Shown here one piece after another: positions 1,458 to 22,600 of a stretch of DNA of 25,507 nucleotides. Position 1 is the first letter of the stretch, and each line of letters opens with the position of its first letter. The position numbers and the translations under genes are program-made. This DNA comes from a virus, in IMG/VR virus record IMGVR_UViG_3300024259_000143, positions 1 to 25,507 of that record; one strand, written 5' to 3'. The notes below the pieces were generated by a model. It had not been told where the DNA came from and made no database searches. It worked only from the letters and a program-made list of their open reading frames with translations.

Positions 1458-1562
1458 TCATGTCTCACACAGATTATTTTCGTTCTTCTTTTCCCAATCC
1501 TTTGCCATTTCAGGTTCGTTTGCGTGCATCCACTTTCTCTGTTTATCAGATTTAAATGGCAT
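1458..1562 (-). CDS. 34-residue small phage protein (MPFKSxKQRxWMHANxP type)
   Basis: A short frame of 34 codons fills most of the gap between the 102-residue gene and the 357-residue gene. Its ATG (1562-1560) shares one base with the upstream stop, as TAATG. It begins MPFKSDKQRKWMHANEPEM and continues with a KDWEKK segment. This pattern, a basic SxKQRxWMxAxxPxxAxxWE peptide, is a recurrent very small phage protein that I recognise from many phage genomes, usually as a stand-alone ORF or as the C-terminus of a larger protein. Its function is unknown. The good match over the first 25 residues and the exact fit into the gap make chance unlikely. The ribosome-binding site is weak (GAAG just upstream), so translation probably depends on coupling to the upstream gene. 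Confidence 0.7.
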   Translation of the reverse strand: MPFKSDKQRKWMHANEPEMAKDWEKKNENNLCET

Positions 1563-1870
1563 TACTTCAATTTTCTTAATTCTTTATCACATCTGTCAAG
1601 CAATTTATCAATTGGTTTTGTATACTTTTTAATAATAGCATAGGCTTCTTTATTTTCCATAATTTTAGTAGTACCTCTCCATGCTCTTCCATCCGCACTA
1701 ACTGAACTTTCCAAAGCATCTATAGCCATTTCATTATAATCAAATACATCTGTGGATTCGTTTACTTTTCTATTCTTCTTTATATCTGCCAATGTTGGTA
1801 ATGGATCACCAAATTGTCTATTCTCAAATCCTGGAGAACTTTCTTTTAATATATCTTTTAATTTAATCAT
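1562..1870 (-). CDS. Small protein with T4-type capsid-targeting leader (candidate internal head protein)
   Basis: This 102-residue hydrophilic protein begins MIKLKDILKE-SSPG. T4 internal proteins carry a ten-residue capsid-targeting sequence (MKTYQEFIAE) cut by the gp21 protease after Glu10, and T4 gp24 begins MAKINELLRE-S with the same cut. Here Glu10 follows L8-K9, so both the (L/I)-x-E rule and the position match. The mature part would be about 92 residues, charged and mostly helical, ending in a Lys/Leu-rich helix, with no enzyme motif. A VNES motif sits near residues 37-40. The gene lies directly after the prohead protease, where T4 encodes the scaffold gp22, but it is far shorter than gp22. 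The Shine-Dalgarno AGGGGA lies within the last codons of the protease gene, which fixes the start at 1870. Packaging and cleavage are inferred from the leader only. Confidence 0.75.
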   Translation of the reverse strand: MIKLKDILKESSPGFENRQFGDPLPTLADIKKNRKVNESTDVFDYNEMAIDALESSVSADGRAWRGTTKIMENKEAYAIIKKYTKPIDKLLDRCDKELRKLK

Positions 1871-1873
1871 TTG

Positions 1874-2473
1874 CTATCCCCTTAGAATATCATTAATTAT
1901 AGCTTCTACCTTACCATACTTTGTATCACGAACAGCAACATTTTCTACACCCTCATTCATTGGATACATAAAAGCTCCATGCGTAGATGGATTAGATACG
2001 AAATCAAAAGCGATTAATTCAAAATCATCTTGCACTTCTTGTGCGCCACTTTCATTTACAGTTTCAACAGAACCCATACCACGAGAACTAATCCCCAACT
2101 TAATACCACTCTTAAATAATTCTTTTAGAATATTACCAGCCGGCGTTCCTAATACTTCAACCGTTCCTAGCAAATCATCACCATTCCAATTTATTTCTGT
2201 AATGTTATGTGATACATTGGATAAATTAACAACGGATGATTCCGGATGGTCTAACTCGCCCATAGCTCTTTTTTGTCCTATAAAATTTTGAAAATACTTC
2301 TTAGCTTCACGCATCAGTATTTCTTTTGGATATACTCTACCATTTTGATTTTTGGTGTCTGCCCTTTGCAATACACCTTTAACAACGAGCTTTCCGTTGT
2401 TTTCTTTCATAGACTCATTGATTTGGTCTGCTTGTATTTCAAATGGTAAATAATCTACTATTAATTGTTTCAT
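1874..2473 (-). CDS. 21: Prohead core protein protease (T4 gp21-like)
   Basis: This 199-residue protein matches the gp21-type herpesvirus-like-fold serine protease family, which degrades the scaffold core and trims head proteins inside the prohead. The T4 enzyme is about 212 residues long. Visible family signatures are LQRADTKNQNGRVYP (35-49), GELDHP with the likely catalytic His76, the SHNITEI strand (88-94), GISSRG with the likely nucleophile Ser129 or Ser130, and DFVSNPSTHGA (157-167). A QINE-S sequence at residues 17-21 fits the (L/I)-x-E rule and could be a self-processing site, as gp21 is known to process itself. VNES and MNEG motifs occur near 139 and 172. The start overlaps the upstream stop (ATGA), and GGAG lies eight bases upstream. 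Position among the portal, core proteins and leader-bearing proteins supports the call strongly. Confidence 0.93.
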   Translation of the reverse strand: MKQLIVDYLPFEIQADQINESMKENNGKLVVKGVLQRADTKNQNGRVYPKEILMREAKKYFQNFIGQKRAMGELDHPESSVVNLSNVSHNITEINWNGDDLLGTVEVLGTPAGNILKELFKSGIKLGISSRGMGSVETVNESGAQEVQDDFELIAFDFVSNPSTHGAFMYPMNEGVENVAVRDTKYGKVEAIINDILRG

Positions 2474-3990: not shown

Positions 3991-5808
3991 TTAACTTTTA
4001 TTAGAATTTAAAGAATTGATCTCAGTTTTATATACTTCATTAACCTCATCAGATTCATTTATTAACTCTTTTCCCTTACTACCCATATTTTTCAATAAAT
4101 TTTCATATTTTGAAAGCGAAGCCTTCCCATAAGCTGTATTTTTATCGTGCGCGCCCAATGGATCTCTCCCTCTTGCACCACTATCCTTACCATACTTATC
4201 AGCTTCTTTAGGACGACCAGCGCCATCCCAACCACCTTCAGGTGAACCACCTTCATCATCTAACTCATGACCAGTTCTTCCCATCGATTGATCGGACGGC
4301 GTTCCTTGAGATTGCCCACTTTTAGCAGGATCATTACCCTCATTCTCAATTTGCGCCCGGCGGAATTTATTTTTATAGTCAAATGTAATTTGCTCATCCA
4401 ACTCTTTTATATCAGCGTCTGAAAAATTGTAAATATTTTTATAAATCCATTCCGTTGAAAGAATACCATCTCTTAACATACTTTCCGCCAATGACGTTTT
4501 GTTATTCCACAATTCAACCTTCTCTTGTTCATAGATTGTGGATGGATTTGTAAGTTTTAATTCAAAGTTTACAAGATCTTGGTCTCTAAAACCTTGAGCA
4601 TATAAATGAACTACAGCAATTTTTTGTAATTCACTAACCAGTATTCTCTGTATTCTTTCAATTGTTCTAGCAAATCTAACATCTTCTGCCGCTAAAGTTG
4701 CTTTAGAACCCAAACCTTCTTCATATCCTAAGAAAGCCTTCGGAACGTGAAGTGAAGCCAATAACTTATTCTTCAAATATTCAATATCTTCTATTGCTTC
4801 ATATGTCAAACCTGGAAGAGCATTTATTTCTGTTCCACTATCTCCGCCACGCACTGGTAAAAAGAAATCTTCTGTGAGATTTTGGATGTTATAACGTAGG
4901 TTATAATCTCCAGTATTTTCATCTATAACAGGAGCCTTTTTCATCTTATTTATTACTTGTTGCATGTAGTTATCAACTTCTGCTGGCGGTATATTACCAA
5001 TATCTAATTTGAACACTCTCTTTTCGGGTGCCCTCATAATACGATGTATTAACATAGCATCTTCCATAAGAGTTAATTGCTTCCAAACTTTTCTACCACC
5101 TTCTAAAATAGAACGACCATATGGTACAAAATTAGAATCTGAAAGTAATCTGAAATGTGCTATTTCATAATTTTCCAACATCGTTGTTTCTGCACCCCTC
5201 TGTGTATGTCGTGCGCCAACCACACCACTTGATTGCTGTGGTATAAATTCGAATTGTACTAAATTTGGATTGGATGGATCGTGGCCCTCAAGACGCGTTA
5301 TATCATAAGCCGATATTGGCATTACGTTTGTAATACCATATTTTTCATTTATATCCAGTTTGAGAAAGAAATCACCATATTTTGTCATGTTTCTAACCCA
5401 TGGCCACAAATTAAATTCTATGTTAAGAACATCATAAAATAGATTATGTAATATATCATGCACATTATTATTATCTGTAGTAATTTGTAGTACTTTTCCA
5501 TATTCATTTTTCATAGTTGATTCATCTGAATATACATCTAATGCGGAAGCTACAATAGCATCCGAATCCATTGATTCATAATCCCCAAATAATCCCAATC
5601 TAAGTTGTTGGACTTGCATAAGCTCGTTATATCCATATTTTTGCATATTAGAATATAATTTTGTAAACCTATCCACCAAAGTGTTCTGTGCAATCGCTTG
5701 AACGTGTCCAGTATCAACTATCTTTAACTTTTTGCCACCAATATTTCTAACAATAGTATTAGTTGAAAATAATCGTTTTAATCTTGAAAATATATCTTGT
5801 TGTGCCAT
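3991..5808 (-). CDS. 20: Portal vertex protein (T4 gp20-like)
   Basis: At 605 residues this is somewhat longer than T4 gp20 (about 524). It forms the dodecameric ring through which DNA is packaged and to which the neck attaches. The body shows the order expected of the marine gp20 group: a variable N-terminus, the DIVASALDVYSDE-like helix (seen here as SDAIVASALDVYSDES, near 83-98), FNLWPWVRNMTKYGDFFLKL (133-152), the PYGRSILEGGRKVWKQL segment (about 229-245), EKRVFKLDIGN (about 262-272), the LPGLTYEAIEDIEYLKNKL region (about 334-352), and LGSKATLAAEDVRFARTIERIQ (about 367-388). The last 120 residues are a Gly/Asp/Ser-rich disordered tail, and INE-S at 583-585 matches a gp21-type site. A clear AGAGGT Shine-Dalgarno lies six bases before ATG 5808. 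The terminase stop is only ten bases upstream, so the two are co-translated from one message. Confidence 0.93.
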   Translation of the reverse strand: MAQQDIFSRLKRLFSTNTIVRNIGGKKLKIVDTGHVQAIAQNTLVDRFTKLYSNMQKYGYNELMQVQQLRLGLFGDYESMDSDAIVASALDVYSDESTMKNEYGKVLQITTDNNNVHDILHNLFYDVLNIEFNLWPWVRNMTKYGDFFLKLDINEKYGITNVMPISAYDITRLEGHDPSNPNLVQFEFIPQQSSGVVGARHTQRGAETTMLENYEIAHFRLLSDSNFVPYGRSILEGGRKVWKQLTLMEDAMLIHRIMRAPEKRVFKLDIGNIPPAEVDNYMQQVINKMKKAPVIDENTGDYNLRYNIQNLTEDFFLPVRGGDSGTEINALPGLTYEAIEDIEYLKNKLLASLHVPKAFLGYEEGLGSKATLAAEDVRFARTIERIQRILVSELQKIAVVHLYAQGFRDQDLVNFELKLTNPSTIYEQEKVELWNNKTSLAESMLRDGILSTEWIYKNIYNFSDADIKELDEQITFDYKNKFRRAQIENEGNDPAKSGQSQGTPSDQSMGRTGHELDDEGGSPEGGWDGAGRPKEADKYGKDSGARGRDPLGAHDKNTAYGKASLSKYENLLKNMGSKGKELINESDEVNEVYKTEINSLNSNKS

Positions 5809-5818
5809 TTTTTACCTC

Positions 5819-7396
5819 TTATTTTATTAGCCAATCCAATGATTCTCTCTTCTTATCAGGGCCAATTTCCCATTCCCAAGAATCATTTTCATATGTCGGT
5901 TTCTGTGGTAGCATCTGCGATGATATACCACTTAAAGTTTTTCTTTGCAATTCTATTCCTTCAGCCTTCAGCCTTAACGCTGTATCTCTAACCCACAATC
6001 CTATAGCAAGAGACATGACTAAATCATCGTTATATCCAGTCATCGCTTCTGCCTTATTGTTGTTATATATAAATACAAAAAGTTCATCAATTAATCTATT
6101 TGAGCGAACAATTACTGACTTTTCTCTAAAATATTCATCTAATTTAGCAATAACAAGCGGTCTTGTTTTCATAGTCATACTAAAGCCCGCCACCATATTT
6201 CTTTCCGTACTTCTATATCGATTAGTCATTTGATGTTCTGTATCCACATACTTCAAATCTTTGCTTGTATAAAATAAGTTTTCGTAACCTCTATCAATAC
6301 ATTGTTGGAGCGCAGCCCAGCCAATATTATTGTTTTCTACAACCAATAAAGCATTGTTATATTCTATTGCTGTGTTAACGCATAGGTTTCCAAAATCCTT
6401 TGTTGATATTTTACCTCTATATTCCGCTACTTGTTCTAAATTTTCTACATCTATTACGTGAAATGCTGAAAAATCAGAACCGTCCCCTCTACTAACATCA
6501 GCGCTAACTACATAATCTCTAGTGTAGTTTGCTGGTTGCCATATCCAAAGGTTACTGTCTATACCCCTCTTTTCCAATGGATCATAAACATGGGTTTGTT
6601 TATATTCATCTAATATAATACCATCAATAACAGTTTGTCCTGAAGTCAGGAAGTCACAATCACATTCTTGAGCAGCTAATGAAGGACCTAATAGCCTATC
6701 TTGCTCAGCTCTCCACCCCGTATCTCTTTCCGGGTGCAAGTCCCAATGCAATCTAATAAAGTTCCAATCATTTGTTCCTTCTTCGGCACCTACCCAAGTC
6801 TTATGAAACCAATTACCAATACCATTTGGAGTAGAAAGCGCAATACATTTTCCACCAGTTGATAATGTCTGTGAAGCAGCAGCCCATATTGGTTCAATCT
6901 TATCAATAAAGGCAGCCTCATCTAATATTAGTAGAGATAGAGCTTCTGAACGACCACTATCTTCGCCACTCGATACAGCTTTTACTTGTGAGCCATTATT
7001 GTATCTCAACGAGAGCTTGTTATCCTCAACACACTTCTGCTTTAACCAACTTGGTAAGTTAGCATGCATCACTCTTACTTTTGTAACTAAGTTTTTAGCA
7101 GTATCTTGTTTGGTAGCAATCACTAAGATGTTTTTATCATGATGAAATGTCATCAACCAAAGTGAGTATCCAGCAGTTAATGTTGATAATCCTAACTGAC
7201 GTGCTTTTAGAATAATATTAAATCTATGTTCCTCAAAAGTATTTAAAGATTTCTCTTGAAATTCCCAAAGATGAAAGGGTACTTTACCTTTTATCGGGTG
7301 CTGGACAACACAATACTTTTTCATAAAGTATGCTGGGTCTTTAGCGCACTTAACGTACTCTTTTTTAATGACTTCTTTTAGTGGCGTAGGTTTCAT
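5819..7396 (-). CDS. 17: Terminase large subunit (T4 gp17-like packaging ATPase/nuclease)
   Basis: This 525-residue enzyme powers DNA packaging and cuts the concatemer. The ATPase half shows a deviant Walker A, KARQLGLST (residues 64-72), Walker B LLILDEAAF with Asp159-Glu160, and the coupling motif STPNG (188-192). The RNase-H-fold nuclease half shows the acidic residues in VSADVSRGDGSD (first Asp at 300), VVENNNIG (Glu354) and YNDDLVMSLA (Asp457/458). The chosen start is ATG 7396-7394: it shares one base with the preceding stop (TAATG) and has AGGA eight bases upstream. The frame runs open for 12 more codons upstream, but that would lengthen the overlap and lacks a ribosome-binding site. 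In T4, sheath and tube genes lie between gp17 and gp20; here the portal follows directly. No small terminase is recognised in the window. Confidence 0.95.
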   Translation of the reverse strand: MKPTPLKEVIKKEYVKCAKDPAYFMKKYCVVQHPIKGKVPFHLWEFQEKSLNTFEEHRFNIILKARQLGLSTLTAGYSLWLMTFHHDKNILVIATKQDTAKNLVTKVRVMHANLPSWLKQKCVEDNKLSLRYNNGSQVKAVSSGEDSGRSEALSLLILDEAAFIDKIEPIWAAASQTLSTGGKCIALSTPNGIGNWFHKTWVGAEEGTNDWNFIRLHWDLHPERDTGWRAEQDRLLGPSLAAQECDCDFLTSGQTVIDGIILDEYKQTHVYDPLEKRGIDSNLWIWQPANYTRDYVVSADVSRGDGSDFSAFHVIDVENLEQVAEYRGKISTKDFGNLCVNTAIEYNNALLVVENNNIGWAALQQCIDRGYENLFYTSKDLKYVDTEHQMTNRYRSTERNMVAGFSMTMKTRPLVIAKLDEYFREKSVIVRSNRLIDELFVFIYNNNKAEAMTGYNDDLVMSLAIGLWVRDTALRLKAEGIELQRKTLSGISSQMLPQKPTYENDSWEWEIGPDKKRESLDWLIK

Positions 7397-7794
7397 TACA
7401 TTTTTCCTAAAATAAATCCTATACCTAACCAAAGGTATTGATTTTCATACCATTTTGGTTCAACTAACTTAACTAACTTTTCATTCATTTCATCTCGAGC
7501 TTTTAATAATTTAATCTGTGAATCCTTGACATTTAATAATAAAGAATCAACGTTAGCCGTTTCTTCTAATTTTGTTACTAAATTTTCACAATCACTAATA
7601 ACAACTTTTTGTGATGCAATTAATGAATCGGCCTTTTCTATCTTACCTTCCCATTGAGCATCTCGTTGTTTAATCATCTCCAACGCTTCAGCGTATGTAA
7701 AGGTAGTCGGCTTTTTGCCATCCTTCTTTATATCTTGCGCATCTGTCATTGATAACGCGAAGAAGAATATTATAAAATATTTTAGTATATTCAT
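7396..7794 (-). CDS. Exported coiled-coil protein with C-terminal hydrophobic anchor
   Basis: From ATG 7794 this is a 132-residue protein. That start is preferred over ATG 7806 because GAGG lies six bases before it and overlaps the stop of the upstream gene, and because the protein then opens with a clean signal sequence (MNILKYFIIFFFALSMTDA, then Gln). The middle 80 residues are predicted coiled coil. The C-terminus, from WYENQYLWLGIGFILGKM, is a short hydrophobic segment that could anchor it in the inner membrane. There is no lipobox Cys. I have seen this layout (signal peptide, coiled coil, KPKWYEN-type hydrophobic end) in phages of aquatic hosts, without assigned function. Together with the next membrane protein it could form a spanin-like envelope-disruption pair, but neither shows the defining Rz1 lipoprotein features. 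Confidence 0.75.
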   Translation of the reverse strand: MNILKYFIIFFFALSMTDAQDIKKDGKKPTTFTYAEALEMIKQRDAQWEGKIEKADSLIASQKVVISDCENLVTKLEETANVDSLLLNVKDSQIKLLKARDEMNEKLVKLVEPKWYENQYLWLGIGFILGKM

Positions 7795-8643: not shown

Positions 8644-11600
8644 TTACCTCGTAAACTTTAACATTCCTAAAATTTGATTAACAGGAGCAAATGCGCCTGT
8701 ATACTTATACAATTTCCCTTTAAACATAAATGTAATACCCTCACTTGGTACAACAGCATCCAATCCTCCAATAGCATTCAACCTATCCAATTGAGTTTTT
8801 AATGTATTTAATACTTTTGGATCTGTAGAATTTTTTACTTTGGATATTACACTTATTAAATCTTTTTTAATTTTTTGCACTGCCGCATCCGGATTCGCAG
8901 CAATAAAATCACTAAGATTTTTTAATATTTCCGCGCCAAGTTCAAAAAATAAAACTTCCCAATCTCTTATATGCTCTTTCTGTAATCTGGCGTGATCATT
9001 TTTATCAGTAGATAAAACCCATTCTAAAAACTTGGGATGATCTTCTTTTAAATCCTTTTTAATCTGTGGAATCTTATATGATTTATCGAAGAAAGCCCAC
9101 CTCTTAGTTAGTTTGACTAAAATATCATTTGTTATATTCATGAAGTCAGTTTGATTAGCACCATTTAATATATATTCCATCCAATATGCTTGATGATAAT
9201 CTGCTAATGTATCAGTACCTCTAAGAGCATAATTATTTTGTAACGCGTTCAACTTGCCCAAAAAATAACTTTGTCGTTGTGAAAAGTTTTTTACTTTTGG
9301 GAGTTTAGCTACAAATGGTCCAGTTACACTAAATGTCTTTTGTACATTTTGATTTATCTGCTTTATCATACCAGCTAATACTCTTGCACTGCTACTATCA
9401 GATCCAATTGGCGAACCAGCCGCATTATACTCTATTGTTCCATGAAATTGTAAAAGTGATTTATCATAAGGAATTACATTTGCTGTTTTCGGATAAATGA
9501 TTTCCAATGACATAAATTTCTTACCTTCTGCGAATATTTTATCTTTTTGTTTATCACTTAATCCACCAATCGCTTTTGATAAATCCACCATTGCACCAAC
9601 AAATGCCTTCTCAAGGTCTCCCCTTCCAGCAAACATACTCTTTACACCACTAATACTTAATGCCGCTGCACCAAAGTTTTTAATATGTCCACCATTTCTA
9701 GCCGCAATAAGTTTACCATTCTTCCAACTTATCATTATATTTTGACCGTCTGTTTTTTCTGTTACAGTCCCATCATTACTAAGATTACCTTGTAGTGTAT
9801 TAATAATTAGTGTTCTGAAATCTGAAAATGTAAGATTATTATTATCAAATGGATGATTTAAATGTCCGTACGCGCCGCCCATAAGCAGTAGCCCCTTTCC
9901 TTTATTTTTTTGTGTTAAAACACTTTTTGAATTTATTTGTTCGTGAAAATTATCCTTATCTTTAACTTCATAACTAAAGCCATCAGCGCCAGCCACCATC
10001 AAATCACCTATAATATTATCAATAGCAGCGTCAGTACCCATCCAATTTACTATTTCCCAGCCTAAAGGTTTTACAACATCCGTCATCCATTTTTTGTATT
10101 CTCCAACCGCTGCAACAGAACCTTTAGCTTGGCCTGCATCTAAATGAGTTACATCCGTTGATACATAATGCTTTTTACCCGGCTTCCTTCTAGAAAATTC
10201 CGATGGTGCATCATCATTATCCATTGGATCTATCGCGTTATTACTTACTATATAATCTATAATTTTCCAACCGGCTCCACTATATAAGTTATCTATCCAA
10301 TTTTTTGATGATTTTTCATAATCTTCAAAGTCTTTATAATAAGTTGAAGGACCATCATCAAGATTACCTCCAGGAGTTCCTGTAGCTTCCAGTAAAAACT
10401 CTTCTATTAACTCGTCCGTTAGCGTATAGGTTTCAAATAACTTTTTAAATTTATTTGTCATCATTTGAAAATTTCCCTTATCAAAATACCCAAATATATT
10501 TTTAAATCTTTTTTGTCTCTCGCTATCATCAATTTTAGGATCACCCAATAATTCTCTAGCTTTAGTACCACTAATATTACCAGATTGTGGAGCAGTTAAA
10601 ATATACCCATGCTCATCAAACCCTTTCATATCCTTCGTATAAGGTTTAAAATATTTACCACCAAGTCTACCAGAATCCTTTCCACCAACCACATAAACAA
10701 CTGCTGTAGTTTCTGGATCATATTTTCTAAGTAAATTTTTTGCAACATATGGTGATGTTTCTTGGATTATTCTATTTCTTGGAATGCCCATCTTTGTCAT
10801 ATGCCTGACTTTTTCTGAAAAATTCATTGGATGTCTAGGTGGTTGTTTTATATTAGATGTCGTTATATAAGCTTCATCTACCCTGCCTTTCAACCAATCA
10901 TATGTAGCAGCGTGGCCAGAATGAAATGGTTGGAATCTTCCGCCGAATACTCCGATTACTTTTTTAATTTGTTTAGCTTCATTCAATTTAGCTATTTGTT
11001 TTTCTATATCCTTTATTTGCAATTTTAACTTATGACTATTGGCTCCACTACCAAATCCTATAGCTTTTTTAATTAGTTTTTGCCTCTCATCTCTAAGTTT
11101 ATTTTGTTTTATTTGGTCTTTTCTACTTAATTTTTCATTTACGTCTTTCAAATTAGATGCACTATCCCCACTTTCTGCAATAGAATATACAACCTTTTGC
11201 ATATACAAGTCAAGGGTTTCTTTTATTTTTATTTTCTTATCTATAATATCTGGCTTTTTAACTTTATCAGTTGTAACAAAAGTATCATATTTATCGTCAG
11301 GAGAATGTTCATATTGTCTAACCTCTAAACTTATCTTTGGCTTATATCCTTCCGGCAGTTTATTAATAATCCCTTTGAAATGTACTTTTCCTGGAATTAA
11401 ATAAAGCATCATATTTAATTTATTTAAATTAACCAATAATTGACTTGATGTCCACAATTGATTTTGACTTCTCACCATATCATATTTTGGACCTAATTTT
11501 TGTGTATGATTGTAAAATTTTGGAAATACTTCTTTATAATTTTTTGTAGATTTAACTAATTCTTGAGCATATTTCATTCTTGTTTCGGAAGATATTCTGT

Positions 11601-13185
11601 CTGGTCCTCTTGTATATCCTTGTTCAGGATGTTTAATTCCATGATTAGTTCTTACGAGTGGCTTTTTTAAGTCATGTACAGTTACATGCGGTTTTACTCT
11701 TGAAGTGTTTTCAATTACAGCAACTTTTTTACCGTCACTAACAATTGTATGACCTTTAATTCCATCGTGAAATGTCACTAATGACCTAACCACATCAGAT
11801 AATTTTTTATAACCCAACGCCTCTCTAATACGAGCACCATCTTTTGACGGGGCTTTTATTTTTTTAGTTTTATCGAATTCTTTTTCATCTCTCTTTACAA
11901 ACAGTGCTGAATTCACAATACCGATTCCATATGAATTCATACCCTCACACCAATCCGTATCCTTATCCATTACATAACATATTTCCGTACCATATCCAGT
12001 AAGTTCTCTCACTACTAATAAATTAGGTGAATAATTTCTATCTCTGTTTTTACCCAGCACTATATCATTACCAAATTTATTAGCAAAAGTAATACATTCA
12101 TCAATTTCTTTATAACCACTTTTCTTATCCGTTTTATTTTTATTAATTCCTTTACGACTTGGAGATGGTAACATTCCAGCCGGCGCTCCAAATTCTTCAT
12201 CAAATGCATTTACTTTTTTAACTAATCTAAACTTTAATGCAGGCCTCCCATTGATAAGCAAATCACCCTTCTCATTCCAATCAATAGATTTAACAACTAC
12301 TTTCTTATTCTTAAATTTACCCATTTTAACGGTATCGCCTATTTCAACAGGAACATCTATACTTTCAAAGAAACGAGATTGACCTGGATCTTTGAATACT
12401 TTGTGAAATTTCTTTTCTTTTGCAAGCCAATCCTTTCCTATTTTACTCGATACGGGCCTACTAAGAAATTTAGTAATACCTTTATTGACTAACATTTTAA
12501 ATCTTTTTTTAGCTTGTTCAGCATCTAAATATCTATTATTATCAACTATTAGAAAATTAGATCCTCCAAATAAACCTTGGAAAAACGCTAAATTATTTTG
12601 GACATCCTGCCAACTTGTACGGACAATCGGTTCAGGTACTACTCTTGTTCGTTGCTCATTTCTTTCTAAAGCGACATCTAAAGAAGTATTTACAAAAACC
12701 ATATAAGTATCATAACCCAATGCTTCTAATTGTTTTTTCTGCGCTTTCACCGATTTGTATTTATGTCCAGTACCATCTATGATTACACCTAATCTACCTT
12801 GTGTATATAATCTTAATCTTTCCTTACTTAGCGATTTAGCAAAATTTCTCAAACCACTTGTAGCATAATCAACAGGATTTCCATTTCTATCCACACCAGT
12901 AAGGTCTTGAAATAGTTCATCTGGCATAACATCTAAATCTGTTGTTTGAAAATACTTTTTCATTAACATTTCAAGTTCAGAATCCTGATTTACCATTTTT
13001 AAACCAGTCCTAGATACATTGACGTTTTCAGGTATGCCGAATAGTTTAGAAGCAACATATGACTTTCCACTTCCAGGTCCACCAGCTAAAAAGATAGCCT
13101 TAAAGATACCTGGATCTCTAGCTCCCTCTGTTAGTATATCTGCCTCTATAAAAGGTTTTGTTAAAAATTCGGTAAGTTTATTCAT
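8644..13185 (-). CDS. 1513-residue multi-enzyme protein: P-loop kinase, beta-barrel, Ntn-hydrolase, NMNAT-like and RNA-ligase-like domains
   Basis: Domains in order. Residues 28-245 are a zeta-toxin/polynucleotide-kinase-like P-loop kinase with Walker A GGPGSGKS (35-42). Residues 275-325 are a small beta-barrel. Residues 364-628 resemble an Ntn-hydrolase of the acyltransferase/C45 group: Cys364 as nucleophile, KNRDR (379-383), GMNSYGIGIVNSAL (415-428) and RTNHG (512-516). Residues 680-736 are coiled-coil linker. Residues 742-916 are an NMNAT/cytidylyltransferase-like fold with GRFQPFHSGH (749-758) and ISGTKAR (871-877). Residues about 960-1513 are an RNA-ligase-like nucleotidyltransferase with EKTDG (Lys1144 nucleophile), SLEII (Glu1228), EGITFMFKG (1482-1490) and KLYKYTG (1491-1497). 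An insertion of about 225 residues lies between its motifs III and IV. (L/I)-x-E plus small residue occurs at 20/21, 363/364, 671/672, 736/737 and 933/934. AGGA precedes ATG 13185. RNA repair and NAD metabolism are plausible roles, unproven. Confidence 0.85.
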   Translation of the reverse strand: MNKLTEFLTKPFIEADILTEGARDPGIFKAIFLAGGPGSGKSYVASKLFGIPENVNVSRTGLKMVNQDSELEMLMKKYFQTTDLDVMPDELFQDLTGVDRNGNPVDYATSGLRNFAKSLSKERLRLYTQGRLGVIIDGTGHKYKSVKAQKKQLEALGYDTYMVFVNTSLDVALERNEQRTRVVPEPIVRTSWQDVQNNLAFFQGLFGGSNFLIVDNNRYLDAEQAKKRFKMLVNKGITKFLSRPVSSKIGKDWLAKEKKFHKVFKDPGQSRFFESIDVPVEIGDTVKMGKFKNKKVVVKSIDWNEKGDLLINGRPALKFRLVKKVNAFDEEFGAPAGMLPSPSRKGINKNKTDKKSGYKEIDECITFANKFGNDIVLGKNRDRNYSPNLLVVRELTGYGTEICYVMDKDTDWCEGMNSYGIGIVNSALFVKRDEKEFDKTKKIKAPSKDGARIREALGYKKLSDVVRSLVTFHDGIKGHTIVSDGKKVAVIENTSRVKPHVTVHDLKKPLVRTNHGIKHPEQGYTRGPDRISSETRMKYAQELVKSTKNYKEVFPKFYNHTQKLGPKYDMVRSQNQLWTSSQLLVNLNKLNMMLYLIPGKVHFKGIINKLPEGYKPKISLEVRQYEHSPDDKYDTFVTTDKVKKPDIIDKKIKIKETLDLYMQKVVYSIAESGDSASNLKDVNEKLSRKDQIKQNKLRDERQKLIKKAIGFGSGANSHKLKLQIKDIEKQIAKLNEAKQIKKVIGVFGGRFQPFHSGHAATYDWLKGRVDEAYITTSNIKQPPRHPMNFSEKVRHMTKMGIPRNRIIQETSPYVAKNLLRKYDPETTAVVYVVGGKDSGRLGGKYFKPYTKDMKGFDEHGYILTAPQSGNISGTKARELLGDPKIDDSERQKRFKNIFGYFDKGNFQMMTNKFKKLFETYTLTDELIEEFLLEATGTPGGNLDDGPSTYYKDFEDYEKSSKNWIDNLYSGAGWKIIDYIVSNNAIDPMDNDDAPSEFSRRKPGKKHYVSTDVTHLDAGQAKGSVAAVGEYKKWMTDVVKPLGWEIVNWMGTDAAIDNIIGDLMVAGADGFSYEVKDKDNFHEQINSKSVLTQKNKGKGLLLMGGAYGHLNHPFDNNNLTFSDFRTLIINTLQGNLSNDGTVTEKTDGQNIMISWKNGKLIAARNGGHIKNFGAAALSISGVKSMFAGRGDLEKAFVGAMVDLSKAIGGLSDKQKDKIFAEGKKFMSLEIIYPKTANVIPYDKSLLQFHGTIEYNAAGSPIGSDSSSARVLAGMIKQINQNVQKTFSVTGPFVAKLPKVKNFSQRQSYFLGKLNALQNNYALRGTDTLADYHQAYWMEYILNGANQTDFMNITNDILVKLTKRWAFFDKSYKIPQIKKDLKEDHPKFLEWVLSTDKNDHARLQKEHIRDWEVLFFELGAEILKNLSDFIAANPDAAVQKIKKDLISVISKVKNSTDPKVLNTLKTQLDRLNAIGGLDAVVPSEGITFMFKGKLYKYTGAFAPVNQILGMLKFTR

Positions 13186-13621: not shown

Positions 13622-16600
13622 CTAAGTATCAAAAGTAACTTCCATAAATGCATTAAAGTCATCACATGTTACAGCAGAAGTAGCCCCCATATATCCACCA
13701 TTGTTAGTTATAGTCACATATAAAGTCAAAACATCACCTGCTGCAAATGTATCTGTACCTATTGCTTGAGTTGCTGAGTCGCCCTTATTACCCGTACTAG
13801 TTGGTGACTCGTCAACATAAAACACATTTGTTCCATTTTTTCGGACTTCAGTTCTCACGAGTGAGTAAGCCTGATCAAAGGGAGTATCGAAACCATCGGT
13901 TTGACTTGTAACATTAAACTGACACGAAACCCCAGTAATACTACCAGCTCTATGCATTCTATATCCTATTGTGGCTCCCATCTGTGTACCATTATTGAAA
14001 TCTAAATACCTACTTGTAGAAAATGTCCCACTTTCACCACCATCGAAATATCCACGTGTACCACCACCAGTCATATGACCGGAAATTGCTAAATCGCCTG
14101 CAGCATTTACTACCAGCAAATCACTCGAGGACAGTCTATCTTGAATTTTTAAAGGATAATGAGCCGTATTTCCGGCCACTCCCGCTTCTATAAGTAATCC
14201 ATGACCACTGGATCCACCATTGTGAATACCTGCGGCATACGCTCCATTTTCGTATATATTTAGATTCAAACCTTCAGCTGTTACAGATATAGCACCATCA
14301 CTACTCATAGTTCCGGCATTAGGACCTATTGTTAAACCTGGACTACTTTGAGCAGTGGTATTTCCTATTGAAACGCCTCCTTCAAAATATGAATTTCCAT
14401 CTGCAACATAAAGTCCATAACCAGAATCCGCATCGACGTAAATTCCGTAAGTTGAATCTGATGTTTCTGCTTTGACATATATCCCATATAACGCATTTGG
14501 ACTAACAGAACTATATCGTGTTGCTGCAAAATATCCTGCATATCCTATACCAGTTGTTCCTACGCCATTTACTTCACTATATATACCATAACCGACTGCA
14601 TTAGTCCTCTCATTGAATCCTACATATCTACTATAGATATTATAAAAAGTTTCAGATATCCCACCACCACTCGATTCCCTGGTTGATTGAATAAACATAT
14701 TATAGCTAACTTGATTATTTGCTCTCATATTAAAGTAATGGCCGTAGCTGTATGCTTCGACAGAACTTTCCCTCCAAGCAGTGCTTGAAAGTACAGGTCC
14801 AATTTGGTCTACTGCTTTAGCTGTATCACGTATAATAACCATACCATCAGAAATATCTACCCCTAATCCGTATCCAGAATATCCTGACGGATCTGAAAAT
14901 CCAGATCCTATGGTTAATTTGACATCATTGTTAGAATCAAAATATTGGAAATTATTATCTGTGCCGGATATTCTAACTCTTTCTCCAGTTGCCGCTGTGG
15001 AAATAATAGCTCCACTACTTCCTGTAAGTTGGTTATTAGCAAGTGTAAATCCACCGATAGCACCAGCAGTTGCAGTAACCGTTCCTTCCATCGATACATT
15101 ACCACTCGAATCAATGTTAAAATTAGATGAACTAATTTCAAGAGAGCCAGAATTACCGGATGTGCTGGTAGTAAATAATTTTATAAAAGTATTTTTAACA
15201 CCAGCTCTAAAGAATAAAGCTTCATCTGGTTGACCGACAGATGACATAAGCCATGCACTTCCTGAAAAAGTTGTTGGGTTTATAGACATCCCCTGACCAA
15301 CTCCAGAATTAGTACCATAAAGTATTCCCGAACCATCATTACCGTCATATTGAATTCTAGCTGAATGACCAGATTCTAATGTAAATGCAGTTGTTTTACT
15401 CGCGCCCGCTCCAATAGTTCCACGTATTTGATTTCCTTCAATATCAAATCCACCTATATCACCTTGAGTTATTTGTGCCGCAGAAGCAGTTATTTGTCCA
15501 GTGAGTCCTTTTAAAGTAAGTGTTCCAGCACCCGCAGTTAAATCACTTCCGATAGTAAATCCACCGATTTCACCTGCAGTAGCAGTAACCGTTCCTTGCA
15601 TTGTAACATTACCAGCATTAGTAAGATGAAAATTACTTGAACTTATTTCTATGTTGCCATTACTTCCACTAACAAATTGTCCACCGCCACCTAAGAAAAA
15701 GTTGGATGAACTTATATACATTAAGTTTTCGGCTGATGAGAATTTTAGATGTGCACCATCTGCTTTACCTATTTGATATTTTACAGCATTATTCTCATTT
15801 AGGAAATACATACCGGATGTTGTGGTTGTATCAGTTATATTTGTATTATAAGTTCCACCGTCAGTATTCCAGAGGAAAGAATTTGTACCATCTGCTTTTT
15901 GTACTGAAATAATTCTCATTCCACCTGTTACGCCAACCACACCAGGGGCTGATGCTGCTCCTATTGTGATTACGGCACCCACCTCAGGTGCACCAACTTT
16001 AGCAAGTACTTGGAAACCAGCACCAAGCGAACCACTCATACCAGTTAGTGCGATTACAGGTAAAGGGTTGGCACCATATTTTGTACGAAGCAAAACTGAA
16101 CTTGTCAGATATGAATTAGAGCCACCAGAGGTATCATATCCAATATAATCAGAAGTAAGTGCTTCATCTGTAATAGTAAATCCACCTATTGTACCACCAG
16201 TAGCAGTAATTGAGCCACTCATTTTCATCGTGTTATTAACAGTATCTAAATGAAAAGCACTTGAACTTATTTCTATGTTTCCATTACTACCACTTATGTA
16301 TTGAGCACCACCGCCTAAATAAAATGTTGAAGCCGACATGATAAGATTTGAACCATCAAATGATATTCTTTCTCCCGAACCACTACCAAATAAAAATGTG
16401 CCTGTTCCATCTACATAAAAACCATCACCACTATTATAAGCAGTTGGAGCAATTCCTGCACCTATTTTTATTTGACCACCACTTGAATCCGAATCTAATA
16501 TAAAAGTAGTACCTGATTTTATTTCATCAGCATCTATAGTCCAACCACCTATGGTTGCACTTCCATCTATTGTTAAAGAACCACCTGTATATCTGAATCC

Positions 16601-19600
16601 TGTTCCCATGGACATTCTACCATCACCAGTTGATCCATCAATATAAATTCTGTCTGCGGAATTATATGCGTCAGTTCCAGTGCCTAAAGATAATATACCA
16701 GCAGCTTTTAATTTTGCATTAGTTCCAGTTATTTCATCTGAATTAATTGTCCAACCAGCTATTACGTTTTGATTTTCTGATAATTCAAATAATAATGTAC
16801 CAGCCGAATTAAATCCCTCTATTCCATAATCGCCAGAATTAAGTCTACCCAGAGCGACTCTGGTATTATCTCTATTGGAGGGGCCGTAGTTGGCTTTACC
16901 AGCCGTGTCATGAACTGTAATCAACTTATTACTCGCGTCTATGATGATTCCTTGAGTATCGGCCGATGTTGAACTTGATATTAAATTATTACCAATTTCC
17001 CAACCACCAACACTCAAAACTCCACCAGTATATGTGAAATCTTCACCGATAGACATTCTATTACCCGGACCATCTAAGTATGTTCTATTAGCTTGAGCGT
17101 AATTATGTGTTCCACTTCCTAATGAAAGAACACCACTACCGCTTAATATTGCTTGTCCATTTGAAGATGAAATTTGTCCCTTACCAATCTTCCAGCCACC
17201 AGCAGTTAATACATCACTAACATAACTAAAATTTTCCCCAACAAAAAAGATTGGGTCTGCTGATGCACTTACGAAAAATAAACTTGCAGATGGACTCATT
17301 CCAGTATGAGTTGTCGCGTTTGTTCCCAGTGCTATCTTAGCCTGGTTGCCGTCTATTGTTGCGACTGTTCCACTTGTCAATTGACCTGGTCCCAATTCCC
17401 ATCCAGCCAATCTTGCTTTATTTGCAGTAATCAATACCGAAGCACTGGCTTCACTTCCTGAAACCGTTCCACTTCCACTAAAAACTGCGAATCCATAAGG
17501 ACTATCTACCGTACCATCATGTAGTGGTAATTTACCCAATACAAGTTTAGGTTGAGCTTCATCCATACTACCCGTCCAAATAGTAAGTGATTGTGAAATT
17601 GAACTTAATCTTACACTACCATCTACATTATCACTCTGTATATTACCAGGTATTAAATCCCATCCAGCTAATTTTGCTTTATCTTCTGTAATTAATACTG
17701 AATACCTATCCTCATGCAAAATGCTGGCATTATCAGTACCACTAAATACAGCGAAGCCATATCTATCATCGTCAGATGAACCACCAACTCTTGGTAGTTT
17801 CCCCATTACGACTTTTGGTTTTGCAGTATTTATAGAACCAGTATGAATTGATATTTGTTGGTTTGTTGCGTCAAGTGCTATTGAACCATCAGAAGAATCA
17901 TATTGTAATTTTCCTGGTACTATATCCCAACCAGCTAATTGATGGTTTCCATCTAATCTTAATCTAATGACTTCAGCACCGGCGGTATTATATCCAAATA
18001 ATCCTGAAGTGCTAGCTGTTCCAGTATTTGTTAATTTTAATGCTGAATTAGCCGTACCAGTTATATTACCAATCATAATAGTACTATTAACTAATGCTAA
18101 TGCGTTGTCAGATTTTACTGCAATATTTCCTTTTAAGTATATGTTACTTGAATAAAGACCATGACCTACTAATGGAGATCCACTAAAATCAGTATCAGTT
18201 ATTCCGGCAAGATTTCCCAAACGAGCTTCTACTGTTCCATCATCAATAACATCAACGAATGGGGAGTTAGCAGAACTAGCATCTATCAATACAGAACCAC
18301 CGGATGTTCTAACACACGTCATACCAATTTGTAAATCAGTAGAAGCACCTACCGAGTATGTTACGTTATAAGTATGGAATGCAGTTTCACCCGACCCACC
18401 TGTTGCACTCAATGAATCTATTGTAAAGATAACTGACGTAATCGTACCATCAGTAGAGTCAGCTTCCTTACACCACATAGTAACTGGAAATGAACTAAAA
18501 ACTGCTGATTTATCATCTCTTATTTTAAGTGTAGTTGTAGATGGTATAGATGATATAACGGCCGAATCCGAAACATATAAATAACCATTTGTGGCCTTAA
18601 CTACATCTTTTTGGAATATATGAGTTCGTAATGTATTTCTAACAACTATGTTATCAATTTCCATTGTTGTACCACTGGATCCACCATCGTCAATTCTAAA
18701 TCCATCACCCCCCACAAGTGCTGATACAAATGTGGATGTTCCAAAAGTACCTGTGTCTCCAATAGTTAATGCAGAACCATCAAAGGTAAGAGTAGATTCG
18801 GCAGTTAAGGCGCCATCCCCATTTCCTGTTAAAATATAATCCGTACCAACTGTAGATAATCCTGTTCCGCCATCTGCTACTAATAAATCTGTAATTCCTG
18901 TAATTGTTCCGCTATCTATATCAACATTAGTCATATTTTGACTATCAAAGTTTATTGCTCCGGCCGCTTGGAATGCTCCAATTTTAGTAACTGTTAAAGT
19001 GTCGGTAGCAAAGGTAAAATCAGAATCGTCTGTAAGTTGTCCATTTGTTGTAGAGAAAGGAACTCTTCCACTTGTTAAATCATCTGCAATAAGTGTGTTA
19101 GCTCGAAAGTCATAAGCCCCTATATCAATATTTGCTGTTGCAGTTATTCCTGCGGTTGTTAATGCAGAAATTGTTGTTGCTGCGATTGTACCGCCTTCAA
19201 CTTTATCACCACTTATTTGATTAGCTGCTAATGTTAAAGTTCCAGCACTTACATTTAATGTTTTTCCAGAACCTACCGTAATATTTGAAGTTGCTATTGT
19301 TGCCCCGTCTATATTACCACCATCTATATCTGGCGTATTAATATCAGGACTTGTTAAAGTTTTGTTTGTAAGTGTATCTTCTGAACTAATAGTTACTAAA
19401 TTAACTTCAGCACTTTTCAATCCACCTTTCCACCTATCTACAGCCACATCCCAAAGTAATGAACCAGTCTGAGCAGTTGCGGCATCATTTACATATATTC
19501 CACCATCTCCGGCAGACGAGCCCCCGTTCAATGTTAAAATTTGATCTCCAAGAACAACCTCATTAGTAGTAGTTGTAGTCATTGTTCCAGCTACACTTAA

Positions 19601-22600
19601 ATCACCAGTTAGTGTTAGTCCTACAAATGTTGGACTGTCCGCCGTTCCTATACCTAAATCTACTGTATCAGTTCCACCATCTATTTCAGTCATTGTTAGA
19701 ATACCAGTAGAAGATGCGAAGCCAACTCCTTGATAAGCATTATTTACGCCAAGTGTAGTTCTCATAGCAGTAGTTGATGCATCGTCAAGCAACGTTCTCG
19801 CAGTAGATGTTAATGCGGTTTCTGCAAAAGTATCAGCTGCTGTTGTATAAATCATTTTATCAGCCGCAGTTGTTATTGTACCTATGTTTCCTATAGTAGT
19901 TGTTTGTGCGGCAGTCCAACCTGCAACTGAAGTTAATTGGGTGTCATAAGCTTGAACATCAGTACCAATTACTAATTCTAAAGTTGTTCTTGCATTTGAT
20001 GCTGCTACATCATCTACAAGTGATGCTCCAAAGGTTGAAATTGTTGTATTTGTAGGAAGTGACAATGTCGTAATATCAGCATCTATAGAAGCCGTCATTA
20101 AAGCACCTGCTGCCTCTACATTGATTGTATCGGTTACATCCGCTAAAGCTTCAATAGCATTAAGTTTAGTATGATCTGTATCTGTAAAAACATTGGAATC
20201 CGTAGCCGCTTCAACAGCAGCTCTAATTTCTGCATTGGATTGATCAGCCGTTGCACTAGCTTCAATAGCATTAAGTTTAGTGTGGTCTCCATCTGTAAAA
20301 ACATTGGAATCCGTAGCCGCTTCAACAGCAGCTCTAATTTCTGCATTGGATTGATCAGCCGTTGCACTAGCTTCTATTGCATCTAACTTATCAAACATCT
20401 CATCTGACATCACACCCCAATTGGTTGTATCAGCTAAAGGAAGTACAGCATTTGTTCCATCAGATGACACTACATCTAATTTCGTGCCATCTCTACTTAC
20501 AGAAAGATTAGTAGTTACATTTGTTACTTTAGCAGTATTCGCTGTTACAGCAGAATTATTAGCTACCTCGGTATCGAAATCACTAATTGTTGAAGCTATT
20601 TGAGTTCCTGTATGATTTGCTCTTGCTAGTGGATTGGTTGCTAATTTAGTATTAGCAATCGAACCAGCCAACATAGCATTAGTAACTTCAGTCGAACCAA
20701 TAGAAATTGTTACATTACCTGTAGCACCCGTAACATCAATACCAGCTCCAGCAACTGCAGTTGCTACATAATTTCCTGTTGTATGTGTTCCTAATGTTAT
20801 TAAATTATTTAGAGTAGTGGCTCCAGTTCCACCCTGAGCTACTGCTATCGTATCACCTTCCCAAGTTCCATTTGAAATAGTTTGACCACTCATAAGAGTA
20901 TTAATCGTAGAAAATTCTAATGCATGCCTATGATTACCCATAGCATACTCCCCGACATTTCCTTGATATCCAGTAGCACTTACATTGGCTGTATCAGCTG
21001 TATATGCTTGTAAAGATGGCGCTGAAAGGGACCCAAAAACACCCGCATTTGTTGAATTTGCACTTCCAACTGTTGTAGTTCCGAAGGCTGCATTTCCCGA
21101 TCCCCCCTTAATATCAAGACCATCCGCTGTCATTTTAATATAAGACATATCAGATTGATATAATAAAAATCCGTCTGGAGATAACTCTACTCGTGGTTGA
21201 GACTGTCTAAGTCTGAAATTATCAAAAGTTAATTCTGTGTATGCATATTTTGGATCTTCACTAATAGTAACAAGTTCCGGAAATTGTGCGCCATTAGAAG
21301 GTGTCGGGCCAGCACCATTCCACCATTCGGGATATAAATATTCTTGACGTGTATATGAAGAATCTGGATTAATTGAACCACTAAGAACTACTCTAAGTTT
21401 ATGAGAATTGGCTGGTAATGCTGCTGCTCCACCAATAGATTGATATACACCACCTACCGAATAGCTCCCCATACCATCAGACCCAGTAATTTTGGGGATA
21501 AAATGTTTCCACGCAGACCCATTCCAATAATCAACTCTAAATTTTTGTGGTTTAAACCCCCTATCTACGCCCGCGCCTGCGAATGAATGAGACATTTTTG
21601 CTACACCAGCAAAAGAAACAACATTTCCTGCCTTCCAAAGATTTCCTGCAGCTGAACTCGCACTTACTATTTGAGTAAGTTCATATGTATTCAAGTCCCA
21701 GTTAGGTGTATAGCGATCATACTGCCCCATCGGCAATGTTCTAGAACCAGTTAGATATGAAGCACTCGCTTCTTCATAACTCCGACTAAAAGATGCAATT
21801 GGTGCATTCTGACCAGGATGAATAACATCAAATGTAAAATCGCCAAGAACTGCTGCATTATAGCCCCCAAATACTGCATCAGTAGTTCTCTTTGTAATAG
21901 AATGAGAAATAGGTCCAGTTGAACTAAATGACCAACTTGTAACTGTTAATGGCGACGCAGTAGTTCCTATATGATAACCATCGGTATGTTGGCCCGACTG
22001 AGTTACTTCAAAGCTATCATTCTTTGCTTCATCGGGATCAGATCCGATTTGAAACATTGTTTTCTCTGCAATCGCTACCATAGGATTACCATAGTCATCT
22101 TCAATATATAATCCCGGTTCAACCGAGCTACTTAATCTTGTTACTCCTTTAAATATAGCACCGTCATTAACTGTCCAACCACCGATATTTGCTTCGGATG
22201 ATGAAATAATACCTTGAAAAGTTGCATTACTTGCGGTTAGATTACCACCCACATCAACAAAAAAGTTGGATGCAGATATTTCACCACCACTTAATTTAAA
22301 AATCGGTACTCCACCAGTTCCACCCGTAGCATGAAGTAATATTTCTTGACTATCTCCAAATGACATTGAAGCTTGTGGTGAAGATAATGTAAATCCACTT
22401 GCACTTATATTAAGATCTGTAACATCAATATCTATATCAGCTCCAGTTAAAGAAAAGCTATCATCTTTAAATTGAATATAACTACTAGCATCACCAAATC
22501 TGAATTCTCCTGATCCAGATAAAAATGCTCCTGTCCCACTTGTAAGCGTTGCAGCATTTCCTATACTCATAGAAGCGTGTGTAGAAGAAACCTTTACCCT

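Follow-up and report, generated by a model that had tools for sequence, protein, structure and literature searches.

A C45-like cysteine Ntn-hydrolase domain of phages with a predicted prohead-protease site directly before its nucleophile

The viral DNA analysed here (25,507 nucleotides, referred to as the window) encodes a large multi-domain protein in which the predicted nucleophile of a cysteine Ntn-hydrolase domain directly follows a site resembling those cut by the prohead protease of phage T4; the arrangement recurs in many T4-like phages. It is likely, judging from the sequences and models compared, that this domain is a zymogen whose cysteine is freed by a gp21-type protease at head maturation, and the enzyme is perhaps packaged. 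The fold, the register of the nucleophile, the conserved site, the protease in the same genomes and the contrast with cellular relatives were all computed here.

In the proposed mechanism, a cysteine Ntn amidohydrolase (or acyltransferase) would be made as an inactive precursor. The gp21-type prohead protease of the phage would cut after a hydrophobic-x-E motif, making the Cys the new N-terminus, and the freed Cys would switch the enzyme on at the head-maturation stage. In the window, where the Ntn domain is one module of a tagged polyprotein, the same protease would probably cut the linkers too, and the released modules would then likely reside in the head and reach the next host together with the DNA. 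Cleavage, its need for activity, packaging and delivery are the steps that we infer. Ntn hydrolases are known self-activators. A capsid protease that uncovers the nucleophile would tie the activation of an enzyme to virus assembly, and would be a clear case of a phage timing an enzyme via head maturation. The combination is new, while its parts are known: an Ntn fold like that of C45 enzymes, a protease site of the T4 type and, to some extent, tags like the targeting sequences of T4. A literature search, with most subscription journals outside its range, gave no report linking an Ntn hydrolase with a prohead protease.

The Ntn domain and the protein that carries it

The first-pass annotation, made from the letters of the window alone, had placed an Ntn-hydrolase-like domain at residues 364-628, and its coordinates are correct on the minus-strand ORF (Table 1). 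Of the motifs that it listed, KNRD, EGMNSYGI and RTNHG are present, but the Cys is followed by I-T-F and not by T-F. In the motifs given in the table and text, an arrow (↓) marks the boundary at which a cut would fall, or simply the boundary before the Cys.

Table 1. Features of the window, with positions in nucleotides
Feature	Position	Strand	Evidence
Small ORF, start MIKLKDILKE↓SS, a tag type common on proteins of relatives	1562..1870	-	sequence
Prohead core protease, T4 gp21 type (S77, Peptidase_S77)	1874..2473	-	PF03420 7.4e-29, phrog_207 7.5e-55
I-N-E, protease residues 18-20, possible self-processing site	2414..2422	-	sequence and analogy with T4 gp21
Portal protein, gp20 type	3991..5808	-	PF07230 9e-75
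Terminase large subunit	5819..7432	-	profile matches
Multi-domain ORF, 1513 aa, houses the Ntn-like domain	8644..13185	-	
C-terminal module, residues 1114-1513, EKTDGQN, weakly RNA-ligase-like	8647..9846	-	similarity from relatives
Nucleotidyltransferase (NMN adenylyltransferase-like) module, GRFQPFHSGH; Pfam match at residues 746-840	10666..10950	-	CTP_transf_like 1.1e-9
Linker, residues 629-737; [IL]xE sites end at 656, 671 and 736	10975..11301	-	sequence
C45/AAT-like cysteine Ntn-hydrolase domain, residues 364-628	11302..12096	-	profile matches and predicted fold
Cys364, predicted Ntn nucleophile and P1' residue	12094..12096	-	invariant in alignments; on the catalytic Cys of solved Ntn enzymes
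I361-D362-E363, predicted prohead-protease site (P3-P1)	12097..12105	-	hydrophobic-x-E in 144/151 distinct sequences
P-loop kinase-like module, residues ~26-250, border set by hand	12436..13110	-	Pfam AAA_33 1.4e-8, Zeta_toxin 4.4e-8
N-terminal tag, residues 1-20, MNKLTEFLTKPFIEADILTE↓G; resembles a T4 capsid-targeting sequence; [IL]xE sites end at residues 6 and 20	13126..13185	-	sequence

The likeness to C45/AAT-type enzymes claimed by the annotation is also seen, weakly, in profile matches. The NCBIfam profile C45_proenzyme (NF040521) matches the domain with the Cys on profile position 90 of 313 (E 3.5e-9), at 36.5 bits and so under the curated cut-off of 85 bits; the AAT family profile PF03417 matches it at 19.7-20.0 bits, under the cut-off of 23.2 bits. 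With E values up to 0.01, C45_proenzyme matches 42 and AAT 17 of 46 aligned members, the window included. As the match starts at profile position 90, the region ahead of the Cys in the cellular C45 profile has no counterpart in the window.

Sequence searches of the PDB with the domain or its profile gave chance-level matches only, and comparison of folds was therefore needed. The annotation had also asked for this, and the result agrees with it: a model of residues 364-650, built with 44 aligned sequences, has a pLDDT of 86.6, a pTM of 0.86 and the alpha-beta-beta-alpha fold of Ntn enzymes, not some other fold. Foldseek placed 3gvz at the top and isopenicillin N acyltransferase second. In VIA-align, where rows within 1 Z of each other count as tied, the model gave Z 20.6 with 3gvz (3.1 Å over 221 residues), 19.1 with NAAA (3.2 Å, 202 residues), 18.8 with acid ceramidase (3.1 Å, 204 residues) and 18.5 with AAT (2.9 Å, 216 residues). 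Cys364, residue 1 of the model, superposes on residue 126 of human NAAA, as well as on residues 103 of AAT, 143 of acid ceramidase and 2 of bile salt hydrolase (BSH), which we take to be the nucleophile positions of those three enzymes. Among the aligned relatives the Cys never varies, nor do several Arg, Asp and Asn residues, and the invariant Arg/Asp and Asn lie in the expected Ntn motifs. In the alignments with AAT, NAAA and acid ceramidase, model residue 1 coincides with the nucleophile that starts the mature chain; for NAAA this is Cys126 according to the available part of PMC9140057. The C45/AAT enzymes (PF03417, NF040521) and the C89 enzymes (NAAA, acid ceramidase) are therefore alike with the viral domain in the Ntn fold, in the place of the Cys and in the invariant Arg/Asp and Asn (Z 18-19). 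The viral domain differs from them in scoring under the curated cut-offs, in having no pre-Cys region, in carrying Glu instead of mostly Gly before the Cys, and in that cutting by a separate protease is proposed for it.

Solved relatives cut or form amides (PMC9140057 as far as available), and the substrate is probably an amide. A gamma-glutamyl-cyclotransferase domain gives only a weak hint of the substrate: 7 of 13 chosen records have one, but so do 9 of 14 control genomes.

The make-up of the protein around the Ntn domain varies. The nucleotidyltransferase module follows the Ntn domain in the window and precedes it in L007; a direct motif check of 150 loci saw this module near the Ntn gene as a fused part in 12 and as a separate gene in 2, and did not see it in 136. 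A first impression that a nucleotidyltransferase gene is present in 27 neighbouring loci was wrong, since that group had been chained together by tags and other shared parts. In locus L013 the head domain of the polyprotein is of the poly(A)-polymerase/CCA-adding type; by motif, a sequence of this type is a separate upstream gene in L028 and L032. For the conserved C-terminal module, 7 of the 11 members aligned gave a PF09414 match (E 0.0061 at best), and the window's own copy gave none.

Potential sites are common in the window protein and are concentrated outside its folded parts. With domain borders set by hand, the linkers make up 257 of the 1513 residues (17%) and hold 10 of the 15 [IL]xE sites (Fisher p 2.3e-5), the other 5 lying inside folded modules; for [ILVMF]xE the figure is 14 of 31 (Fisher p 0.0002), and four control patterns gave p 0.07-0.96 in the same test. 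The linkers are also richer in Glu as a residue (22 of 73), and composition thus accounts for part of the [IL]xE excess. Because [IL]xE occurs as often as 15 times, a single protein would prove little, and it is the comparison of relatives that carries weight.

The residues before the cysteine in viral and cellular relatives

Viral relatives were taken from contig scans (the best 80 of 98, 465, 463 and 463 relatives per scan), and two named Chryseobacterium phages were added. In all, 289 sequences were scanned; after L008 and L037, which could not be parsed, and the incomplete L056 had been dropped, 286 were left, the window included. Some contigs are represented by more than one locus, and these duplicates drop out when distinct mature sequences are counted, of which there are 151. 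The Cys is present in all 151 of these sequences from the best 80 per scan, and the residues directly before it are [ILVMF]-x-E in 144, Met in 7 and anything else in none. The sequences are related, so that these counts are not independent trials, although the leaders are otherwise unalike. When the first 81 sequences were clustered at 85%, Glu at P1 and a hydrophobic residue at P3 were found in 28 of 29 clusters, with an entropy of 0.22 bit at P1, 1.88 at P3, 2.75 at P2 and 2.75-3.62 at P4-P12. In a larger set clustered at 70%, P1 is Glu in 34 of 38 representatives and Met in 4. The annotation had remarked that the I-D-E before Cys364 would fit the prohead protease, and this agrees both with the viral pattern and with the specificity of T4 gp21, which cuts after L/I-x-E (PMC9026906, available part).

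Leaders differ greatly in length. Counted from the first ATG codon, with ATG starts only, the 138 leaders without loss at a contig end fall into 30 of 4-5 residues, 76 of 6-30, 3 of 31-60 and 22 longer ones, which are upstream domains or linkers, besides 7 without an ATG. The shortest are little more than the site itself (MINE, MIKE, MLNE, MKLSE, MKLLE, MQLTE). The existence of Met-Cys forms implies that a leader of 4-5 residues is dispensable for making the protein. In a model of a precursor with 14 leader residues (pLDDT 83.3), the first 13 residues lie below a pLDDT of 50 and order begins at about the Glu; such a predicted disordered leader is weak evidence for an accessible cut site.

A cellular control was drawn from 50 genomes found by a Bacteroidota-directed probe search, 29 of which have a C45 match. 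The residue before the Cys could be read in 25 of 30 loci (L233, L253, L257, L259 and L260 could not be read, and three further pattern matches were dropped as spurious), and it is Gly in 16, Ala in 4, Gln in 2, and Ser, Phe and Met in one each; Glu was found in none of the 25. L251 carries a second copy with Ala at P1, and L252 has a possible second Cys. The stronger cellular matches span the C45 profile from its start, unlike the viral ones, which begin at about positions 88-101. Other searches for relatives outside the viral contigs gave little: a tblastn search of plasmids with one relative (L041) found no match, a scan of genome contigs gave 38 pattern matches and 0 confirmed relatives, and a phage profile run against 296 genomes of one phylum, without a positive control, found nothing.

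These comparisons bear on the possibility that the viral domain cuts itself, as other C45/C89 Ntn hydrolases do, with hydrophobic-x-E as a self-cleavage requirement of the viral branch. Related enzymes are indeed autoproteolytic (PMC9140057 in its available part, and the family name of NF040521), and the Met-Cys forms in phages that bear the protease mean that the protease is not always used. The absence of Glu among the cellular relatives, the missing pre-Cys region, the predicted disorder of the leader and the identity of the motif with the capsid-protein site of the same phages (see below) all speak against self-cutting, which we regard as unlikely. Removal of the leader by a host protease is very improbable. 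Two cellular relatives do have a signal-peptidase-like context before the Cys (PAKA↓C in L255, SVA↓C in L256), which suggests that other proteases would be capable of the cut, but many phage lineages have kept the viral motif, which fits the phage's own protease as well as its capsid protein.

Bile salt hydrolases and penicillin V acylases are also Ntn Cys hydrolases, with the same fold as the window domain. In some of them the Cys stands right after the start Met or after a leader that is removed, and these leaders go by Met removal, self-cleavage or signal peptidase.

Prohead protease and capsid proteins in the same genomes

The neighbourhood of the polyprotein gene in the window is a head and packaging region, in which the protease, the portal protein and the large terminase subunit are encoded on the same strand (Table 1). 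For T4 gp21 itself, N-terminal self-cleavage has been proposed (PMC9958956, available part). Across the genomes compared, an S77 protease was found in 36 of the 38 records that show a Gp23 capsid gene, that is in 19 of 19 in a first set of 44 records and in 17 of 19 in a second set of 50, with the reservation that some records are near-copies of one another. In the two Gp23 records where it was not found, the capsid gene sits at a contig end. Five records of more than 100 kb with leadered Ntn genes (G016, G024, G036, G416 and G417) showed neither the protease nor Gp23, and are perhaps incomplete or too divergent.

It was expected that Met-Cys variants would occur only in phages without S77, but this failed. 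The protease was found in 0 of 4 Met-Cys records of the first set, where no capsid gene was seen either as far as tested, and in 4 of 11 of the second set (L420-L422 and L426, which correspond to G389-G392). Control by the protease is thus not obligatory. The annotation's proposal that the prohead protease exposes the nucleophile is, as a predicted mechanism, supported by the fold, the conserved P1 and P3, the capsid motif, the co-occurrence with S77 and the contrast with cellular relatives; it does not extend to every relative, with Met-Cys forms in 7 of 151 sequences and four such records encoding the protease.

The capsid proteins of these phages provide a comparison within the same genomes. 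By eye, the Gp23 proteins of all 18 loci inspected have hydrophobic-x-E ahead of the conserved shell domain, as in LIQE↓A, LIDE↓T, LINE↓A, LMNE↓V, LVVE↓T and FLNE↓S, and by analogy with T4 the capsid protein would be cut there. Chryseobacterium phage MA9V-2 has one and the same tetrapeptide, FINE, in the capsid protein and before the Ntn Cys; at the latter place phage MA9V-1 has FLNE↓C instead of FINE↓C. When the MA9V-2 genome was taken in 20-kb pieces, its 265 predicted proteins contained 11 copies of F[IL]NE. The capsid protein and the ORF that holds the protease have two each, and one stands before the Ntn Cys; four proteins of 82-268 aa have it at residue 8 or 10 (for example MKTFTYFINE↓A), and the other two copies lie inside further proteins, at residue 122 of a 443-aa protein and residue 59 of a 1044-aa protein. 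The idea of activation by a prohead protease is, as an inference from sequence, well supported far beyond this window, and the site could serve as a marker for more candidate head-delivered enzymes in many uncultured phages.

Tags on neighbouring genes and known head proteins

Many genes that neighbour the Ntn gene start with tags like MIKLxx(L/I)LxE, and some Ntn leaders are similar. This pattern was written after tags had been seen. In seven sequence sets, two of which have none, it fits 25 of 378 gene starts, compared with 8 of 1842 internal Met positions; among neighbours of the Ntn gene it fits 68 of 753 starts, compared with 9 of 2451 internal positions. A single pattern misses whole phages, such as G013 (0 of 61 starts, with 5 internal matches) and G027 (0 of 56); by eye, G013 seems to use other tags. 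The tagged proteins include HAD-like (FDFDDTL), gamma-glutamyl-cyclotransferase-like and kinase-like ones, these being names by motif except for PF06094. In the window the kinase module is joined to its tag as ADILTE↓GARDPG, and a stand-alone copy in G005 starts MIKLSELLHE↓GINDPG, which means that different tags join at the same point.

As tags ending in hydrophobic-x-E are borne by many unrelated proteins of these phages, the cut might serve only to take off a packaging tag or to separate the modules of the polyprotein; the adjoining Cys would then be a by-product and the domain maybe no active enzyme. Against this stand the invariance of the Cys and of several Arg, Asp and Asn residues in the aligned relatives, the position of the site, which directly adjoins the Cys in all leadered forms read, even with leaders of 4-5 residues, and the Met-Cys forms, which would likewise free the Cys. 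We consider tag removal alone to be quite improbable, and favour release of the nucleophile by the prohead protease.

The closest parallel is given by the internal head proteins of T4 (IPI-III, Alt), which have capsid-targeting sequences (CTS) and are cut by gp21. As in the phages studied here, a leader ends in hydrophobic-x-E and an S77 protease is encoded in the genome, and the window gene likewise lies in a head-gene neighbourhood. In T4, processing is inhibited when the CTS Glu is replaced by Asp (PMC9026906, available part). The viral Ntn domain differs in that its cut would create a catalytic residue, in that some leaders are too short to target, and in that packaging is only putative. 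Some Ntn leaders resemble T4 capsid-targeting sequences, and by this analogy packaging is suggested for proteins with such leaders only. Leaders of 4-5 residues are too short for T4-type targeting, which speaks against the proposal, since the protease works inside the prohead. Measured against a length of about 10 residues for such a targeting sequence, Ntn leaders of at most 8 residues number 41 of 138, while similar tags are common in several of these phages. In giant phages, many packaged proteins are processed at a short motif ending in Glu (S/A-x-E in phiKZ, A-x-E in SPN3US), which is a likeness even though the motif itself differs; the available parts of PMC9026906 and PMC7411985, where this is described, mention no Ntn enzyme whose nucleophile adjoins such a site. 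A wider reading, in which the chances seem to us evenly balanced, is that of a widespread viral zymogen system: the enzyme would be packaged, stay silent in the producing cell until heads form and be active on arrival in the next host, as one of a tagged, head-carried set that includes kinase-, nucleotidyltransferase-, CCA-adding-, HAD- and ligase-like proteins.

Several loci have individual arrangements worth recording. In L052 (3484-13116, record G019), at least 8 genes including the Ntn gene share a MIKLxx(L/I)LxE-like leader, as if an enzyme set were head-tagged. In L048 and L052 a tagged gamma-glutamyl-cyclotransferase-like gene follows the Ntn gene at a distance of one or two genes, and in L064-L067 a leaderless Met-Cys Ntn domain is fused to a gamma-glutamyl-cyclotransferase-like domain. 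HAD-like (FDFDDTL) proteins with MIKL-type N-termini occur near the Ntn gene in L051, L084, L386 and L381. In the window itself, the minus strand of 13622-25507 encodes a repetitive Gly/Ser/Thr-rich ORF of at least 3936 aa which, by its look, is probably tail-fibre-like.
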